Positions 5,432 to 18,375 of a stretch of 18,375 nt of DNA are shown here, one piece after another. The DNA is from Desulfuromonas sp. SDB. Lineage in GTDB: Bacteria > SDB-A. The position numbers were made by a program, and so were the translations under genes. Numbering within the stretch: the first letter of the stretch is position 1; every line of letters starts with the position of its first letter. The notes below the pieces were generated by a model, which was not told the origin of the DNA, ran no database searches, and worked only from the letters and a program-made list of their open reading frames with translations. The stretch spans positions 1 to 18,375 of the forward strand of contig LKUE01000211.1 of assembly GCA_001412365.1 (NCBI GenBank). Direction: 5' to 3'.

Positions 5432-6101
5432 TTACCTTATTAGAGTGGAAAATATAACCAAGTCCTATAAATCGGGAAATGCTTCATTGGAAGTTCTTGG
5501 AGGTGTTGATTTTAAATTATCCCCCGGCGAATTAGTAGCAATTCAAGGACCTTCAGGAAGCGGTAAAAGTACTCTCCTCCATATTTTAGGTACTTTAGAT
5601 CAACCTTCAAAGGGAGAAGTCAAGGTTTTTGAAGAATCCACCTCTTCTCAGTCGGACAATGAACTTTCCAGCTTAAGATGTAAAAAGATAGGATTTATCT
5701 TTCAATTCCATCATCTTATTCCTGAATTAACCGCTTTAGAAAATGTAATGCTTCCCCTGCTCATTGCCAGCCATCCCTCCGCCCAAGCCCGTCAAAGGTC
5801 TGAACAAATATTAAGTAAAATCGGATTAGCCCGGAGAATGGAGCATACTCCCAATAAACTTTCCGGAGGAGAGAGACAGAGGGTGGCTATTGCCAGGGCA
5901 ATGGCTAATAAACCTCCAATTGTGCTTGCCGATGAGCCTACTGGTAATCTTGATCATAAAACTGGTGGATTAGCCATGCAGGAGTTGATAGAAATGGTAA
6001 AAGAAAACCAAAGCGGACTGGTGGTGGTAACTCATAATCCGGAGATAGCTGGATTTTGCCAGAGGATTTTGTATTTAGATGACGGAATTTTGCATGAATA
6101 A
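5424..6101 (+). CDS. lolD: LolD-type ABC transporter ATPase
   Basis: Cytoplasmic ATPase that powers lipoprotein release together with the upstream permease. The 225-residue protein is a complete ABC nucleotide-binding domain. Walker A is GPSGSGKST at residues 42-50 and the Q-loop Gln is at about 94. The signature LSGGERQRVAIARA starts at 146. Walker B VLADEPTGNLD has the catalytic Glu at 171, and the switch His is in VVTHNPE. The segment after the Q-loop (FHHLIPELTALENVMLP) and the DEPTGNLD sequence are characteristic of the LolD/MacB branch. The ATG overlaps the permease stop by 8 bases, and its own stop overlaps the next gene by 8 bases, so the three are translationally coupled. Confidence 0.94.
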   Translation: MNDYLIRVENITKSYKSGNASLEVLGGVDFKLSPGELVAIQGPSGSGKSTLLHILGTLDQPSKGEVKVFEESTSSQSDNELSSLRCKKIGFIFQFHHLIPELTALENVMLPLLIASHPSAQARQRSEQILSKIGLARRMEHTPNKLSGGERQRVAIARAMANKPPIVLADEPTGNLDHKTGGLAMQELIEMVKENQSGLVVVTHNPEIAGFCQRILYLDDGILHE

Positions 6102-6348
6102 CCATAAATGTGATTTATGTTCAGAAGCAGATGATTTAATTGAAATTGAACAGCTAGGATTAGAGGGTAAGACTATTACCTGGCTGTGCAGGAAATGTTA
6201 TCTGAAATTGAGATTGACCTTGAAATGCAAGAACTGCGGCATCACCATTAGTGATTTTGAACGGACTGGATTAGTGGGATGTGCACAATGCTATGATGAT
6301 TTATCCTTGTTTTTGGATCCTTTGATAATCAAAGTACAAGACCTTTAG
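6094..6348 (+). CDS. mcsA: McsA-like zinc protein, short form without UVR domain
   Basis: An 84-residue protein with four CXXC pairs at C6/C9, C32/C35, C45/C48 and C63/C66. The pattern and the CAQCY...LDPLIIKVQ segment match the two zinc-binding modules of McsA, the activator of the arginine kinase McsB. Firmicute McsA is about twice as long and ends in a UVR helical hairpin; here the protein stops just after the zinc part. Position directly upstream of mcsB (4 bases) supports the assignment. I chose ATG 6094 over the in-frame ATG 6079. It places the first CXXC near the N-terminus as in McsA, and its 8-base overlap with the lolD stop is like the neighbouring junctions; 6079 would add five residues. 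The UVR function may be met by the UVR segment inside ClpC. Confidence 0.82.
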   Translation: MNNHKCDLCSEADDLIEIEQLGLEGKTITWLCRKCYLKLRLTLKCKNCGITISDFERTGLVGCAQCYDDLSLFLDPLIIKVQDL

Positions 6349-6352
6349 ATAA

Positions 6353-7438
6353 ATGACTGCCCCCAATCAAAAGTTTCTTTCAGTTCCGTTTACCCTTAAA
6401 AATTGGTTGCCTCCCTGGTTCGGCAAACAGTACAGAAAAGTAATTTTTTCAACCCGGATAAGGTATGCCCGTAATATTTCGGAATTTAAATTTCCTCAAT
6501 TTGCCAAACCTAAGACAAGACAATATATTTATAATAGTATACTAAAAGCGGTTGGAGAAGATGGATTGCAGATAATTGGTCTGTTTGATCTGAACCGGAG
6601 ATATTTAGAGTTATTAGAGGAGCGGCATTTGATTAATACACAGCCAATACCTGAATCTTATCTGATGCTGGATGAAAATGAGTTAATCAGTTTATTGATT
6701 AACCAGGAAGATCATCTGCGTATTCAATCCCTGCAACCCGGATTTGAGCCGGAGCAGGCATTAGCGGTGGCGGATTACTGGGACCATAAATTAAATAAAT
6801 CTCTGAAGTTTGCCGGCAATTCAAAATGGGGGTACTTAACTTCCTGCCCAACTAATTTAGGAACCGGATTGAGATTGTCATTTTTAGTTCATATCCCGGG
6901 ATTGTTTTTAACCGGCGAACTGAATAAAGTAAAAGCAGCAGCTGATCAGTGCCGATTGGCAATAAGAGGGTTATTTGGAGAGGGAACTAAAGCTATAGGT
7001 TCATTTTGTCAGATTTCAAATCAGAAGACTTTTGGCCCGGTTGGGGTTATAATTGATCAGGTAAATAAATTTATGATCAAATTAGCTGATTATGAATGGT
7101 TTGCCCGGGAAAGGATAGTAAGATACAATAAACAATTTTTAACCGATAGAATTAACAAACAAATGGAAAAGCTGTTAAATTACAAATTAAGTCATTTTGT
7201 TTCAACTATGCCAAATTTCAAGGGCATTCAGGAATTAGCTAAAAATTTATCTATGATAAAATTGGGATTTGACTTGGGGATACAGGATCAATTGGATGAT
7301 AAAAAGATAACTTACTTGCTGTTTTTTTGCAAGCCCAGGCATTTGGAACTGTTAAATGAGAAATATACTACCCATTCTTTTTCCGATCTGCTGAATTCTT
7401 ATTATCAATATGAGGAGTTCACCCATGCTCAGGGTTAG
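6353..7438 (+). CDS. mcsB: Protein arginine kinase McsB (phosphagen kinase family), divergent C-terminus
   Basis: McsB phosphorylates arginine side chains and so marks proteins for ClpCP degradation. The 361-residue protein keeps the phosphagen-kinase catalytic core. STRIRYARN is near residues 30-40, and the acidic catalytic motif is ED at 119-120 in NQEDHLRIQ. GYLTSCPTNLGTGLR holds the conserved Cys at 165, GEG contains Glu210, and QISNQ follows. The family's KLGFDLG segment is also recognisable (residues about 302-308). The C-terminal part after that is unlike Firmicute McsB: the RDxxRA allosteric phosphoarginine-binding motif expected near the end is missing, replaced by a stretch with HSFSDLLNSYY. 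The catalytic residues suggest an active kinase, with changed regulation as an inference. It is flanked by mcsA-like and clpC genes; no ctsR is present. Confidence 0.9.
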   Translation: MTAPNQKFLSVPFTLKNWLPPWFGKQYRKVIFSTRIRYARNISEFKFPQFAKPKTRQYIYNSILKAVGEDGLQIIGLFDLNRRYLELLEERHLINTQPIPESYLMLDENELISLLINQEDHLRIQSLQPGFEPEQALAVADYWDHKLNKSLKFAGNSKWGYLTSCPTNLGTGLRLSFLVHIPGLFLTGELNKVKAAADQCRLAIRGLFGEGTKAIGSFCQISNQKTFGPVGVIIDQVNKFMIKLADYEWFARERIVRYNKQFLTDRINKQMEKLLNYKLSHFVSTMPNFKGIQELAKNLSMIKLGFDLGIQDQLDDKKITYLLFFCKPRHLELLNEKYTTHSFSDLLNSYYQYEEFTHAQG

Positions 7439-7490
7439 TTTTAACTTTTTGTTGGAGAGGATGTACTTATAAATATGGGGGGATATAAAA

Positions 7491-10007
7491 ATGGAAAATG
7501 AAAATTTCACTTTAAGATACCGCAAAGTTATGATGAGTGCTCAGAAAGTGGCACGCATCAATAAACGGGGTTATTATACCACTTTGGATATTTTGTTGTC
7601 AGTGCTAAATGAATCAAATTGTTTTGCAGTTAAAGTATTAATTAGACTGGGCATTGATTTAGATTCCTTAAAAAAGATCACTACTTCTAAAATTTACAAT
7701 GAAGAGTTCAGCAATGAAAATCCCAGATACCAATCAGATTATAAAAATCCGGTGCCTACAGTTGAAGTTGAAAAAATTGTTCAGGGTTCGATGAAGCAGG
7801 CGGAAAAACTAGGGCACATGTTCATTGGCACTGAACATTTACTGCTGTCCATGGTGGAGAATGCCAGTTCTGCTTCCGGAGATATTCTGCAATCTTTGAA
7901 TATCAATCATCCCCGGTTGATAAAGGAACTGGAAAAATTAGCTAAAGAAACAGATTTTTCCAGAAAGGAAAATGAACGAAGGAAAAATGGAAAGCACAAA
8001 GAAGCAAATGAAGACGATGAAGAAGATAAACATTCCATTGAAGATTTTTGCAGGGATTTAACTGGTTTGGCGGAATTGGGGAAACTGGATCCGATAATCG
8101 GCAGGGACCTTGAAATTGAAAGGGTTATTCAGGTTCTGGCAAGGAGAAGAAAAAACAATCCGGTGCTGATTGGAGAGGCAGGAGTAGGTAAAACCGCAAT
8201 AGTGGAAGGTTTAGCTCAAAGGATTATATCCGGAGAAGTTCCCCCCATCCTTCTGGGGAAAAAACTATACCAGCTCAATCTTGCTTCAGTGGTGGCGGGT
8301 ACAAAATACCGGGGGCAGTTTGAAAGCAGAATGAAGAATATCATCGAAACATTGAAAAATCGAAATGAAATTATTTTGTTTATTGATGAAATACACACCA
8401 TAGTTGGAGCAGGTTCGGCAGAAGGATCTCTGGATGCCTCCCATATCCTGAAACCCGCTTTAGCTCGAGGTGATATTAAATGTATCGGAGCAGCCACAAT
8501 TGCCGAATACCATCGGTATTTTGAAAAAGATGGGGCTTTGAAGAGAAGATTTCAACCCATTATTGTAGACCCCCCCACCCTCAAGGAAGCCTTGAATATC
8601 CTCAAGGGCTTAAAGGAAATTTACCAAAAACATCATCAGGTAATTTACACTGACAGCGCATTAAATGCAGCAGTGGTGTTTTCAGATAGATATATTACCG
8701 ATAGAAAACTGCCGGATAAAGCCATTGATGTGATTGATGAGTCGGGAGCAAGAGTCAGACTATCCACTATTCCCCAGTTTCCTGAGTTAAATGAAGAAAA
8801 AGATGCGTTAAAGGATATTATAAAAAATAAAATTGATGCAGTATCCAATCAACAGTACGAAAAGGCAGCTGAATACAGAGATAAGGAGATAAAAGTTAGA
8901 TCCCGGATTGAAAAGAAACAGAAAGAATGGCTGGAATTGGCGAATAAAGTAATTCCCAGCGTAACTGAAAATGACATCAGGGAAGTAGTCAGTATGTGGA
9001 CCAATGTCCCTATTCAGAAATTAGAAGAAAAAGAACAGGATAAACTGTTAAAGCTTGAAGATATGATCGGACAGAGAGTTATAAGCCAGATTCAGGCGAT
9101 TCAGGCGGTAAGTAAAGCTATCCGCAGGGGAAGATTGGGATTGAAAGATCCTAAGAGACCTCTGGGTTCTTTTTTGTTTTTAGGACCAACCGGAGTGGGT
9201 AAAACTGAACTGGCAAAATCCTTAGCCGAGGTTCTTTTCGGCAGTAAAAATGACCTGGTCAGACTGGATATGAGTGAATACATGGAGAAATATTCAGTAT
9301 CCAGACTTATTGGGTCTCCTCCTGGTTATGTTGGATACGGCGAACAAAACCCGGCAGTAGAAATTATCAGAATAAAACCATATGCGGTCATTCTGTTTGA
9401 TGAAATTGAAAAAGCTCATCCTGATGTGCTTAATATAATGTTGCAAATGCTGGAGGAAGGAGAAATAACCGATAGCTTGGGAAGAAAAATCAGCTTCAGG
9501 CATTCAGTGGTGATAATGACTTCTAATATCGGCACTAAGGATATTACCAGATCTAAACCTCTGGGATTCTCATCTACTCCCGAAGATATCAATTATCAAA
9601 CCATGAAGGACAACATCATTTCTGAATTGAAACGTATAATCAATCCTGAAATCATCAACCGAATAGATGAAGTAGTAGTATTCAAACGTTTGACCCGGGA
9701 AGACATGAAGAAAATTGTGGACTTGGTATTTCTGGAAGTTAAACAGAGAGTTAGTGAAAAGGATATTGATATTGAATTATCTGAAAATGCTAAAGAACTG
9801 CTGGTGGAACAAGGATATGATCCGGCTTACGGAGCCCGTCCGTTACGAAGAGCATTTAGAAATTTACTGGAAGATCCTCTGGTGGAAGAATACCTCCAGG
9901 GTAAAATCCAAATTGAAAATAAAATTTTAGTTGAACGCTCAGGAGATAAATTGATCTTTGTTGACAACAAAACTGATCAAATGGAAATTGAAATGGAAAA
10001 AAGGTAG
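7491..10007 (+). CDS. clpC: ClpC-type AAA+ unfoldase
   Basis: Hexameric ATP-dependent unfoldase that feeds substrates to ClpP in the cytoplasm. The 838-residue protein has a double Clp N-domain (about 1-150) and a charged linker rich in Glu, Asp and Lys. D1 AAA+ has Walker A GEAGVGKTA near residue 228 and Walker B LFIDEIH. A middle UVR-type coiled segment (QQYEKAAEYRDKEI, about 453-466) marks ClpC rather than ClpA or ClpB. D2 has Walker A GPTGVGKTE near 565 and Walker B ILFDEIEKAH. A KPLGFSS segment in D2 matches the LGF-type ClpP-docking loop. The first N-domain repeat is divergent (YYTTLDILL where Firmicute ClpC has GTEHILL), while the second keeps IGTEHLLL. A GGGGGGA purine run precedes the ATG, and the 52-base gap from mcsB is one of the larger ones in the operon. 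Confidence 0.96.
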   Translation: MENENFTLRYRKVMMSAQKVARINKRGYYTTLDILLSVLNESNCFAVKVLIRLGIDLDSLKKITTSKIYNEEFSNENPRYQSDYKNPVPTVEVEKIVQGSMKQAEKLGHMFIGTEHLLLSMVENASSASGDILQSLNINHPRLIKELEKLAKETDFSRKENERRKNGKHKEANEDDEEDKHSIEDFCRDLTGLAELGKLDPIIGRDLEIERVIQVLARRRKNNPVLIGEAGVGKTAIVEGLAQRIISGEVPPILLGKKLYQLNLASVVAGTKYRGQFESRMKNIIETLKNRNEIILFIDEIHTIVGAGSAEGSLDASHILKPALARGDIKCIGAATIAEYHRYFEKDGALKRRFQPIIVDPPTLKEALNILKGLKEIYQKHHQVIYTDSALNAAVVFSDRYITDRKLPDKAIDVIDESGARVRLSTIPQFPELNEEKDALKDIIKNKIDAVSNQQYEKAAEYRDKEIKVRSRIEKKQKEWLELANKVIPSVTENDIREVVSMWTNVPIQKLEEKEQDKLLKLEDMIGQRVISQIQAIQAVSKAIRRGRLGLKDPKRPLGSFLFLGPTGVGKTELAKSLAEVLFGSKNDLVRLDMSEYMEKYSVSRLIGSPPGYVGYGEQNPAVEIIRIKPYAVILFDEIEKAHPDVLNIMLQMLEEGEITDSLGRKISFRHSVVIMTSNIGTKDITRSKPLGFSSTPEDINYQTMKDNIISELKRIINPEIINRIDEVVVFKRLTREDMKKIVDLVFLEVKQRVSEKDIDIELSENAKELLVEQGYDPAYGARPLRRAFRNLLEDPLVEEYLQGKIQIENKILVERSGDKLIFVDNKTDQMEIEMEKR

Positions 10008-10011
10008 GTTT

Positions 10012-12387
10012 ATGAACAAATTAATTATTACATTGCTATTTATTTTACATCCTTTTGCCATGTTTTCTGAAGTAATCAGTGAAGTGAGGGTAACTGGTAA
10101 TATCAGGGCTTCATCTGAATTTATAATCAGAACATCCCGTATTCAGCAAGGTAAGGAATTTACCGATTTAATGGCTTCCGACGCCATTAAATCACTTTAC
10201 CAGGAAGATATTTTTCAAGATATTTCATTAGATACAAATTATATCTCTCCGGGATCATTGGAAGTAGTTATTGAAGTTATGGAATATCCCACCTTGGATT
10301 CATTTCATCTGCAGGGAGTTAACAGTATAAAAGAAAGTGATCTCCGAAACTGGATTTCCCAGGGGAGTACGGATACTTTGTATGTATCTCAATGGATTGA
10401 TGCCCCATTCAGGGGCAGAACAGTTACTCCCCGGAAATTGATGCTTTGGGAAAATTTTATCTATGGGGTGTATAAAAAACAAGGTTTTGTGGGCACTGAG
10501 GTAAGCATCCAGGTTGGAGAACCGAATTTTAACGGGGAAGTTCAAGTCTTTGTCTCGGTAAAAGAGGGAAAGAAGATCACTATCGCCCAGATAAATTTCA
10601 TCGGCAATAATTCAATTCCCCGGAGAGATCTCCGTTATCAGATAAATAACCGGGAGTGGGGATTTTATGGTTGGGAAGGATTTAGAAAAATTTATATGAC
10701 CGGATTGTTCAGAAGAGGTTTGTTCAATCAGGACAAATTTGAAAATGAAGATATCAGTTTAATTGAAAAGTACTACCATAATCACGGTTTTCCCGATGCC
10801 AGAGTGGATAGTACGGATTACCTGTTCAATTCAGATTCAATACTGCTGAAAATTGATGTTTTTATTCATGAAGGAGATAAAAAGTATTTCGGAATAACTG
10901 AAATTCAGGGAAATCAATTTTTTTCAGTGGAATTTCTGGAAAAATACCTTTCATATTCATCAGGTGACCTGTATAGAATTGACGATGTAAATAACAGCTT
11001 ACAAAATCTCAGCACTATTTATGCGGATAGCGGAATGATTTATGCACAGATCATCCCCCGGGAGGAAAAAACAGATAGTTTGGTTAACATCACCTGGGAG
11101 ATTTCTGAAGGTCCCCGGGTTAAAGTAAGACTAGTTGATATTATGGGAAACTTCCGCACCAGGGACAAGGTAATCCGCAGACAGGTAACTATGATGCCCG
11201 GAGATTACTTTTCAATTTCAAAATTCTACTTAACCGTACAAAATGTTTATAATTTAGGATTTTTTGAAAATGTAATACCGGATGTACAGAGAGTTATGGA
11301 CAGTTCAATTACCGACAGTACCGCCTATGTTGATTTGTTGTTAGAGGTGATTGAAGCCAGATCCGGGCAAATAAAGGGCGGAGCAACTTATTCCCAGGGA
11401 GGTGGAGTGGGAGCTTATGCTGCTTTTTCCATACCCAATCTCCTGGGAAGAGGAGAGACCTTTGAGCTTGAATTTGATATTAATTCCCAGATGTGGAATT
11501 TTAATGTGGGATATTCTGAACCCTGGGTATTTGACACCCCCTGGTCGTTGGGAGGCAGATTGTATGCTACCACCTATGACATGGATTATTACAAATACCG
11601 GAAACTGGGAGGTCAAATTAGCGCATCCCGACCTTACCACATACCCAGTTATCTGAGGTTTTATACTTCATATACAATAGAGAGAGTGGAGGTGGAAGTT
11701 TTTGATATCGAAAACACCAGTGATTACATCAGATCACAGGATGGAGTCAATTACCTCAGCGAATTAGGGCTTTCGGTTATCAGAGATTCCAGGGATAGGT
11801 ATTTCAATACCACCAAAGGGAGTTATTTCCTGTTGAGGACAAATATCGCCGGTGGTTTTTTACAGGGAGATATTAATTTAAGGGAGCATTTAGGAGAAGC
11901 CAGGTGGTATTTCCCCATTTATGAGAAAAAAGTCAATTCATTTATTCCCACCAATGCCTTGATGCTGAGAACCAGAATGGGGGTAATCTCTGATGTTTAC
12001 TCCAATGAAATAGGAGATGTGCCCATCTACCGGTTGTACAGATTGGGGGGTACTGGTCAATGGGGACTGAGGGGTTATGATGATTTCAGCATTGGAGTTG
12101 TGGAAGAAGGAGAAATAATCGGGGGCTCCACCGCCATGCTGTTCAATGCCGAATATTCAATTCATTTGAATGAAGCCATGACTCTACTGTTTTTCGGGGA
12201 TATGGGCAATACCTGGAGAGACCCTTATCAGGTTGATTTTGAAAATGGATTGGGAGATCTTTACAAAGGAGCCGGAGCTGGTTTCAGGATGAAAATTCCG
12301 ATGATGGGGATTATTGGAATTGACTACGCTTACGGTTTTTCATCTCAGGAATGGGTTCCGCATATTCAATTTGGAGTTTCATTTTAA
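10012..12387 (+). CDS. bamA: Outer-membrane protein assembly factor BamA
   Basis: Inserts beta-barrel proteins into the outer membrane. The 791-residue protein has a signal peptide (MNKLIITLLFILHPFAMFS). Five POTRA repeats follow, whose first strands read VRVTGN, FHLQGV, INFIGN, EIQGN and VDIMGN. A C-terminal 16-strand-type barrel starts near residue 450. The lid motif equivalent to VRGF/Y appears as GLRGYDD (R687). The chain ends in Phe (FGVSF), the beta-signal expected of an outer-membrane barrel. I chose ATG 10012 over the in-frame ATG 9958, because 10012 puts the signal peptide at the N-terminus behind AAAGGTAGG, just 4 bases after the clpC stop; the longer form would place 18 basic residues in front of it. 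Placement next to a Skp-like chaperone and lpxD is the common bamA neighbourhood. Confidence 0.95.
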   Translation: MNKLIITLLFILHPFAMFSEVISEVRVTGNIRASSEFIIRTSRIQQGKEFTDLMASDAIKSLYQEDIFQDISLDTNYISPGSLEVVIEVMEYPTLDSFHLQGVNSIKESDLRNWISQGSTDTLYVSQWIDAPFRGRTVTPRKLMLWENFIYGVYKKQGFVGTEVSIQVGEPNFNGEVQVFVSVKEGKKITIAQINFIGNNSIPRRDLRYQINNREWGFYGWEGFRKIYMTGLFRRGLFNQDKFENEDISLIEKYYHNHGFPDARVDSTDYLFNSDSILLKIDVFIHEGDKKYFGITEIQGNQFFSVEFLEKYLSYSSGDLYRIDDVNNSLQNLSTIYADSGMIYAQIIPREEKTDSLVNITWEISEGPRVKVRLVDIMGNFRTRDKVIRRQVTMMPGDYFSISKFYLTVQNVYNLGFFENVIPDVQRVMDSSITDSTAYVDLLLEVIEARSGQIKGGATYSQGGGVGAYAAFSIPNLLGRGETFELEFDINSQMWNFNVGYSEPWVFDTPWSLGGRLYATTYDMDYYKYRKLGGQISASRPYHIPSYLRFYTSYTIERVEVEVFDIENTSDYIRSQDGVNYLSELGLSVIRDSRDRYFNTTKGSYFLLRTNIAGGFLQGDINLREHLGEARWYFPIYEKKVNSFIPTNALMLRTRMGVISDVYSNEIGDVPIYRLYRLGGTGQWGLRGYDDFSIGVVEEGEIIGGSTAMLFNAEYSIHLNEAMTLLFFGDMGNTWRDPYQVDFENGLGDLYKGAGAGFRMKIPMMGIIGIDYAYGFSSQEWVPHIQFGVSF

Positions 12388-12459: not shown

Positions 12460-13407
12460 ATGAACAAAATTTTTTCAATCAGTTTTATCCTGCTTTTATT
12501 GGCGATAAATATTATTCAGGCTGAAAAGATAGGTTACATAAATATTGAAAAAGTATTTCAGGAATATAATGCCATGAGCGATGTTCAAGCTCAACTTCAA
12601 CAGCTGGAAAATGAATGGTGGAGAGAAGCGGAACTGAAGAAACAGGACTGGATGGAAGAAAGACGGAGCTTGGAGAATGAAGCAGTAACTTTATCCGAAG
12701 AGGAGATTTCCCGGAGAACCAGGTTAATTGAACAAAAACGCCAGGAATACGAAAGTTATGTTCAGGAAATCTGGGGGGAAGGAGGTTTGTATCAGAGAAA
12801 AACTGAAGAATTTACTGCATCTCCCATTGCCCAGATCAATGAAGTAGTCCAGGAAATTGCGGAAACTGAAGAATATACTTTAATTATCAACGCTCTTCCC
12901 TCCCTTATCCTCTATGCTCAACCAGGTTTAGATCTGACTGACCAGGTTTTATCCAGATTAAATGCTGAGTACGTCAGTATTGTAGATACCACTGAACAGG
13001 AAAAGATGAGAACTGCTATTTTATCAGTGGTTCCCATTACTGCCGATGCAAAAAGCTCAGGGATTTCATCAACCATTAATTCCTATCTCCAGTCAATATT
13101 GAACCGGATTGCCACTCTGGAAATAGTAGAGGGGGAAAAAGTTACCGATGCTTTGCAGCAGATAGGGGTTACTACCATTGAAGATATCAATCAGTCCCAA
13201 CTGGCTTCTCTGGCTGCATTTTTAGAAGCGGAATACATTGTCAGAGGAACCATTTCTCAGGATCAGGATCAATTTCATCTGATAATTTCTGTTTTTTCTG
13301 CCTCTATGTATACCGACTTGATTGTGGTGGAAGATAAATTCCAGGGAGTGGAGAATTTGGAAAACAGCATTGAGGCATTGGTAGCCGACCTGGCATCCTC
13401 AATATAA
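12460..13407 (+). CDS. Skp/OmpH-like periplasmic chaperone fused to an extra C-terminal domain
   Basis: A 315-residue secreted protein. Residues 1-21 are a signal peptide ending in IIQA, and GYINIEKVFQEYNAM is the usual first strand and helix of mature Skp/OmpH. A long charged helical arm (about 45-115, rich in Glu, Arg, Gln, Lys) and a return to a beta strand (YTLIINALPSLILYAQPGLDLTDQVLSRLN) complete the Skp module by about residue 168, the normal length of the whole family. The remaining 145 residues form a second unit. It starts MRTAILSVVPI, continues with a helix, VEGEKVTDALQQIG, then LEAEYIVRGTISQDQDQFHLIISVFSA, alternating strands and helices. This resembles the nucleotide-free alpha/beta domains of CsgG, FlgO and TolB-N type proteins, but this is a pattern judgement. 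Located between bamA and lpxD, as skp usually is. Confidence 0.85.
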   Translation: MNKIFSISFILLLLAINIIQAEKIGYINIEKVFQEYNAMSDVQAQLQQLENEWWREAELKKQDWMEERRSLENEAVTLSEEEISRRTRLIEQKRQEYESYVQEIWGEGGLYQRKTEEFTASPIAQINEVVQEIAETEEYTLIINALPSLILYAQPGLDLTDQVLSRLNAEYVSIVDTTEQEKMRTAILSVVPITADAKSSGISSTINSYLQSILNRIATLEIVEGEKVTDALQQIGVTTIEDINQSQLASLAAFLEAEYIVRGTISQDQDQFHLIISVFSASMYTDLIVVEDKFQGVENLENSIEALVADLASSI

Positions 13408-13416
13408 AGAGTATTC

Positions 13417-14448
13417 ATGGTGGAAAAGTACAAGCTTAATGAAATTGCTAAAAAGATAGATGCAGAGGTGATGGGGGATGGAGATATTGAAATAATCTCA
13501 GTGGGATCTTTGAATTCAGCAGGAAAAGGGTGTTTAACCTTTTTAACCGGAAGTAATATAGAAGCTGCTGAATTAGCTGTTTCCCGGGGAGCAGTAGTGA
13601 TTTGCAGACAGGGGCTGAAATTAACCCCTTCCTTGCAGGTAGAAGATCCCTACTTTGGATTTATACAGGCGATGGGAATCATGAAACCTGAAAGCAGACC
13701 TTCTGCGGGTATTAACAGTACTGCTCAAATTGCTAAAACTGCGAAATTAGGACATGGAGTTTTTATAGGACCTTTCTGCCAAATAGGAGAAAATGCAGTT
13801 ATCGGAGATCAAGCGGTAATTCAAGCTTACTCATTTATCGGCAGGGAAGTTGAAATTGGTCAAAACTCCTGGCTTAAACCCAGAGTAAGTTTACTGGATC
13901 GAACAGTTGTCGGCAATAGGGTGATAATTCACTCCGGAGCAGTATTAGGAAGTGATGGTTTCGGCTATCACCAAACCTCAAAAGGTATAGTTAAGATTCC
14001 TCAAGTGGGCAGAGTGGTAGTTGAAGATGATGTGGAAATCGGCGCTAATACCACTGTTGACCGGGCGATGCTGGATGAAACCCGAATTGGGGCAGGCACA
14101 AAGATTGATAATTTAGTTCAGATTGCCCATAATGTGATAATTGGTAAAAACTGCCTGATCGCGTCTCAAGTGGGCATCAGCGGCAGTACTACCGTGGGAA
14201 ATAATGTGATCATGGCAGGGCAAGTAGGGGTGGCAGATCATGTGAAAATTGGAAATAAGGTGACTATCCTTGCTAAAAGCGGCATATCCGGTCATATTCC
14301 CGATAACCAGGTTGTGCTGTGGATTCCGGCAATGGAAGTGAGTAGAGCTAAAAGGATGATTGCGGCAGTGAGAATGCTTCCCGATTTTATTAAGAAAATT
14401 AATAAGCTGGAAAAGCAAATCAAATCATCCCAGCAGTCTAAAATATGA
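13417..14448 (+). CDS. lpxD: UDP-3-O-acylglucosamine N-acyltransferase LpxD
   Basis: Third acylation-stage enzyme of lipid A synthesis: it adds a hydroxyacyl chain from ACP to the free 2-amino group left by LpxC. The 343-residue protein has the small N-terminal uridine-binding domain ([20 protein letters not shown], about 25-45). A long left-handed beta-helix of hexapeptide repeats runs from about residue 105. The catalytic His is at about 238 in [10 protein letters not shown], and the tail ends in a helical segment ([22 protein letters not shown]). Length matches the family. It starts 9 bases after the Skp-like gene and overlaps lpxC by 4 bases (ATGA). Confidence 0.95.
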
Positions 14449-18022: not shown

Positions 18023-18375
18023 GTGAAGAAGATACTATTAGTTAGTATTATGATCTCACTAGCAGTAGCTCTATTTGCCTCTGAAGACCGTGCTCCGGTA
18101 CAGCAGATGCAGATAGAAGCAAGCGGTCCCGGACTGATGACTCAGGGGACCAGAGTAGTGATTGACGGGAAAGATGTATTAATATCCCAGATTCCCGATA
18201 CCTTAAATGCCAACGGCTATGCCTGTCAGCTGGACAGCGCCTATCCGTTTGAAGCGGATATCGCCGATGATATGGATAACACCACCGACGCGGACTGGAC
18301 CATTGACTCCATCACCACCTGGTGGGCTAACTGGAATGGTTTTACCACCTGGGCAAACGTCCCCAACGTGCACGT
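18023..18375 (+). CDS. N-terminus of secreted protein of unknown function (partial)
   Basis: An open frame of 117 codons starting at GTG 18023 behind a strong AAGGAGGG and open at the window edge. It begins with a clear signal peptide (MKKILLVSIMISLAVALFA, predicted cleavage after residue 19, before SEDRAP). The mature start is Pro/Gln/Gly-rich, then YACQLDSAYPFEADIADDM is followed by a Trp- and Thr-rich stretch (DADWTIDSITTWWANWNG). Such an ADDF/ADDM...WTIDSI...WNG pattern resembles the jelly-roll-like N-domains of large surface proteins of diderm candidate phyla that often carry a C-terminal sorting domain; the C-terminus is not visible here. Its GC content is about 52% over the last 180 bases by hand count, against about 32-35% in sampled lines of neighbouring genes. 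Confidence 0.82.
   Translation, partial: MKKILLVSIMISLAVALFASEDRAPVQQMQIEASGPGLMTQGTRVVIDGKDVLISQIPDTLNANGYACQLDSAYPFEADIADDMDNTTDADWTIDSITTWWANWNGFTTWANVPNVH

Follow-up and report, generated by a model that had tools for sequence, protein, structure and literature searches.

Skp is a periplasmic chaperone that, as a trimer, holds outer-membrane proteins in their unfolded state; how these clients are passed on to BAM has yet to be settled. In the stretch of DNA analysed here (18,375 nucleotides from Desulfuromonas sp. SDB; "the window"), the gene directly downstream of bamA encodes a Skp-like protein that extends well beyond its chaperone part. The locus raises the question of what this extension is, how widely it is shared, and what it might contribute to the delivery of outer-membrane proteins.

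The gene is an uninterrupted reading frame of 315 codons with an ATG start (12460–13407, + strand), in line with the coordinates and the description given in a sequence-only reading of the same DNA. Its product starts with a signal peptide, assigned by eye from the sequence (residues 1–21, ...NIIQA followed by E; 12460–12522, +), which is devoid of a lipobox cysteine, and continues with an OmpH/Skp domain (residues 23–167; 12526–12960, +), recognised by Foldseek and by Pfam (PF03938; 92.8 bits versus a cut-off of 32.4; E-value 3e-26). OmpH ends at residue 167 of 315, so that the claimed extension of about 145 in-frame residues is indeed present. It is composed of a flexible linker with its core at residues 172–177 (12973–12990, +, residue 172 corresponding to position 12973; pLDDT below 50 in the AlphaFold2 model of the full protein) and of a C-terminal domain (CTD; residues 182–315; 13003–13404, +), assigned to the TolB-N/LpoB/FlgT/CsgG-like type based on predicted structure, VIA-align Z-scores and HMM matches. 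With an N-terminal half of the OmpH/Skp type and an extension of the TolB-N/LpoB/CsgG type, the product is therefore a two-domain protein. Homologues from three further genomes of this family align end to end at 47–50% identity, which excludes a frameshift artefact; an artefactual or read-through frame is ruled out by the retention of the extension in every close homologue and in many distant ones, the CTD region being open and aligned in more than 150 genomes. Mean identity across the family amounts to 21% in the CTD versus 37% in OmpH. Cysteine is absent from the whole window protein, and none of 37 homologues showed a lipobox-like motif within its first 45 residues. A scan of genome contigs with the window protein alone as query gave no match.

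In the Skp half, the predicted Skp fold is present, with long helices at residues 37–77 and 80–105 of the single-chain AlphaFold2 model, and Foldseek retrieved SkpA of Flavobacterium johnsoniae (8gl8, 5e-9) as well as Skp of Escherichia coli (1sg2/1u2m, 9e-5). The full-length model, for which an alignment of 37 homologues (A1) served as input, has a mean pLDDT of 90, with the low-confidence linker separating the Skp part from a folded C-terminal part; modelled alone, the CTD reaches a pLDDT of 91.9 and a pTM of 0.84. Structure prediction, hence, rules out both a disordered tail and a longer Skp arm, two outcomes which the sequence-only reading had named as speaking against its proposal. The predicted order of elements—strand 183–187, helices 195–200 and 202–215, strand 220–222, helices 225–234 and 245–255, strands 259–268, 271–280 and 285–295, and helix 297–314—bears out the alternation of strands and helices that had been read from the letters.

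Structure comparison and profile searches also support the earlier guess of a CsgG/FlgO/TolB-N-like fold. Using the CTD model, Foldseek found LpoB (4.7e-8) and, further, GNA1162, FlgT, TolB, PelC and CsgG, while VIA-align gave Z-scores of 14.3 for FlgT, 14.0 for TolB, 12.7 for LpoB, 11.8 for PelC and 11.2 for CsgG, the alignments to FlgT, TolB, LpoB and CsgG spanning 113–127 residues. Against the PDB, the CTD family profile matched LpoB best (8e-9), with TolB at 0.003, and single family members reached E-values of, at best, 1.2e-7 for CsgG, 7.3e-6 for LpoB, 5.9e-5 for TolB_N and 6.6e-5 for FlgO, besides matches to DUF3280. The window CTD as a single sequence had no Pfam match above cut-off; its match to LpoB (PF13036) scored 14.7 bits, below the gathering score of 22.3, with an E-value of 0.029, and weak single-sequence matches to HEPN pEK499 and Phasin were taken as chance. 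By predicted fold and sequence profile, the CTD is a member of the TolB-N/LpoB/CsgG superfamily.

The gene is part of a bamA-skp-lpxD cluster. Directly upstream lies bamA (10012–12387, +; Omp85, PF01103, 3.8e-45; POTRA, PF07244, 1.9e-30), whose product starts directly at POTRA1 and carries no N-terminal TolB-N-like domain; directly downstream lies lpxD (13417–14448, +; PF04613, 1.6e-7, and Hexapep repeats), after which further lpx genes follow. The order mcsB-clpC-bamA-skp-lpxD is common to the window and three other genomes (G001, G104 and G132). lpxD adjoins skp in most loci with a long skp and in WOR-3 (NCBI Caldifarciminota, the phylum of G128) usually follows it; bamA was detected beside skp in some WOR-3 loci only and went undetected there in many. 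No Skp besides the fused form was detected in the window's genome. YfiO/BamD-like matches occur in all four genomes of the window's phylum, so that the CTD is not needed as a stand-in for a missing BamD. A separate TolB_N protein is present in three of these four genomes, including a 417-aa frame in the window's own, and the CTD is therefore no replacement for TolB.

Some further features of the stretch deserve mention in their own right. A mcsA-like gene, mcsB (arginine kinase, PF00217, 9.8e-45) and clpC (6079–10007) are located directly upstream of bamA within a cluster of LPS genes, and three phyla share the arrangement mcsB-clpC-bamA-skp-lpxD. The prfB gene starts with an ATG at 1575; before its main frame (1693–2673), the stretch 1575–1653 shows the programmed frameshift site typical of RF2 (AGGAGG TTG CTTTGA C). 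At the end of the window, a frame open at its 3' side (18023–18373) encodes a secreted protein of unassigned family, for which there was no Pfam match; a similar but longer ORF is found at a comparable place in another locus (L112, 10279–11601).

The fused Skp is a conserved, phylum-wide family already contained in public genomes and no local oddity. It is encoded in 4 of 4 genomes of the window's phylum, in 142 of 147 WOR-3 genomes, in all ten genomes of G132's phylum and in G104, the single genome of its phylum; among the matches listed, WOR-3 Skp frames are about 290 aa or longer except for one fragment at a contig edge. In a sample of 290 genomes, 180 of which gave a match to the window protein, strong matches over the CTD were confined to these same four groups. 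Skps in most other sampled phyla are about 170–270 aa long and lack the CTD. The statement that Skp normally has 150–170 residues holds broadly, given that most frames in the sample measure 170–270 aa; however, longer Skps are known, such as SkpA of F. johnsoniae (PMC10994853). In a tree of the OmpH domains of 94 proteins, the labels long and short change 3 times, versus about 31 times in shuffles. A single origin of the long Skp is not rejected, as forcing the long Skps together gave a slightly better tree (p-AU 0.58).

In another large phylum, BamA was seen to bear a domain belonging to this superfamily. In G173, the CTD match falls in the ORF immediately upstream of a short skp, and this ORF (L109, 1678–4380) encodes a 900-aa BamA (Omp85, 4.6e-76) with five POTRA stretches and a TolB-N/CsgG-like domain before POTRA1. 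Counted by eye, about 80 of 198 genomes of this phylum have BamA frames of about 870 aa or more that match the N-terminal domain together with POTRA1. Of 21 BamA loci with the N-terminal domain, taken from this phylum, G059 and G014, the Skp-CTD HMM matched the BamA N-terminus in 20; Skp was found at 20 loci and was short at each. HHalign relates the alignments of the two domains with a probability of 99.1 and an E-value of 1.4e-18 over 130 columns. Among the matches listed for the 147 WOR-3 genomes, BamA with an N-terminal domain was not evident; these BamA proteins begin at POTRA1, most frames being about 735–790 aa long. One locus of G059 (L209, 810–4190) encodes a BamA frame of 1127 aa, in which a second POTRA1-type match comes after the N-terminal TolB-N-like domain and a first such match. 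In profile scores, the Skp and BamA domains are both closer to generic TolB-like proteins than to one another, in a comparison biased by the choice of these proteins with the CTD profile. The idea that a single domain was swapped directly between the two genes is, thus, not supported; since neither domain is the closest relative of the other, recruitment was probably independent, the same superfamily having repeatedly been brought to the same site. With a superfamily as common as this one (some match in 164 of the 290 genomes), the link to BamA is one of analogy and not of descent. Its position before POTRA1 in bacteria with a short Skp nevertheless connects this type of domain with the site of BAM.

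The leading explanation proposed for the CTD is docking at BAM, for which the related domain fused to BamA itself in another phylum is the best indirect support. The protein would be made from the bamA-skp-lpxD cluster, its CTD acting as a protein–protein interaction domain that is attached by a short and flexible linker. In the Skp trimer, the C-termini are located in the body, and the linker leaves the body there; therefore, the three CTDs, each behind a short linker, would crown the body on the side opposite to the client-holding tentacles. From this position, they may hold client-loaded Skp at an envelope partner of the assembly site, most likely BAM with BamA and its POTRA domains, and given the BamA fusion in a phylum with short Skp, BAM might be served by this type of domain either from Skp or from BamA. 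We give nearly even chances to the proposal that a folded interaction domain on the only Skp detected in the genome tethers the loaded chaperone near BamA/POTRA or another envelope partner. It is suggested by the solved relatives of the fold, which are periplasmic or outer-membrane interaction domains, by the single Skp match in the genome together with the adjacency of bamA, skp and lpxD in the window, G001, G104 and G132, and by a precedent from F. johnsoniae, in whose type 9 translocon the C-terminal extension of SkpA touches PorV, an outer-membrane barrel (PMC10994853). Counterpoints are the frequency of the superfamily and the analogy, not descent, behind the BamA link, the many WOR-3 loci in which bamA was not detected beside skp, the lower conservation of the CTD relative to OmpH, and the finding that deletion of the SkpA helix in F. 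johnsoniae did not slow export (PMC10994853).

Alternatively, the CTDs could join within or between trimers into a ring or larger cage, thereby enlarging or stabilising the chaperone. The ring formers FlgT, PelC and CsgG are among the close structural matches, and Skp is already trimeric; however, LpoB and TolB share the fold and do not form rings, and the N-terminal version on BamA is hard to account for by oligomerisation of Skp, which makes this explanation unlikely. Rather improbable, too, is a coupling between the biogenesis of outer-membrane proteins and either the cell wall or Tol-Pal, in which the CTD would act on a peptidoglycan synthase in the manner of LpoB or on Tol proteins in the manner of the TolB N-domain. 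The rank of LpoB as best PDB profile match, well ahead of TolB, speaks for it, while the missed Pfam gathering score for LpoB, the short linker without a lipobox, unlike in LpoB, and the separate TolB_N proteins of the phylum speak against it.

A use of the fused protein as a structural part of another outer-membrane machine, for secretion or LPS assembly, with general chaperoning given up, would have a parallel in SkpA, a Skp repurposed in the type 9 secretion system (PMC10994853), and would suit the lpx genes behind skp. Against it, the protein is the sole Skp detected in the genome and is encoded together with bamA, and its presence across a whole phylum would fit a housekeeping role better; we regard such a change of function as very improbable. 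Returning to docking, a wider generalisation is conceivable but doubtful, namely that TolB-N/LpoB-like domains are a recurrent BAM docking module, joined independently either to BamA, ahead of POTRA1, or to Skp, behind its body, in lineages without the E. coli arrangement; if true, chaperone delivery would be physically coupled to BAM.

The Skp and CTD parts are each of known kind; their combination is new. The literature searched, which left most subscription papers outside, held no description of Skp/OmpH fused to a CsgG- or TolB-type domain, of the WOR-3 Skp, or of BamA with a TolB_N-like N-terminal domain. The "new architecture" of the sequence-only reading is, hence, new with regard to description, but not with regard to occurrence. 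The annotation of a family now plainly named "OmpH" in more than 150 genomes is refined, and attention is drawn to many BamA proteins with an extra domain for which that search found no description. Importantly, a Skp with its own folded interaction domain, conserved across a phylum and matched in other bacteria by a similar domain on BamA, offers a concrete handle on whether delivery is directed or diffusive.

Compared with known systems, the window protein shares with E. coli Skp the OmpH domain, the predicted Skp fold and the signal peptide; while the latter stops after the OmpH domain, the former adds a folded domain of about 135 aa. SkpA of F. johnsoniae (8gl8), a 341-aa chain, likewise is a Skp with a long C-terminal extension reaching an outer-membrane barrel. 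Its extension is mostly unresolved in 8gl8 except for one helix, and was not recovered from the PDB by the CTD profile at E-values up to 10. The C-terminal domain of LpoB (4q6z, 4q6l), the TolB N-domain, the FlgT middle domain, PelC and CsgG resemble the CTD in fold (Z-scores of 11–14) and profile, but belong to lipoproteins, a propeller protein or flagellar parts; the window protein has neither lipobox nor β-propeller nor transmembrane hairpins. LpoB, CsgG and FlgO have the lipobox cysteine that the Skp-CTD family lacks, and TolB continues after its N-domain with a β-propeller, where in the window the CTD is the end of the protein. To our knowledge, none of LpoB, TolB, FlgT, PelC and CsgG is known as a Skp fusion. 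In G173's phylum, it is the adjacent gene of this cluster, bamA, that encodes a domain of this superfamily; there, the domain is fused before POTRA1 and Skp is short, whereas in the window it is borne by Skp.
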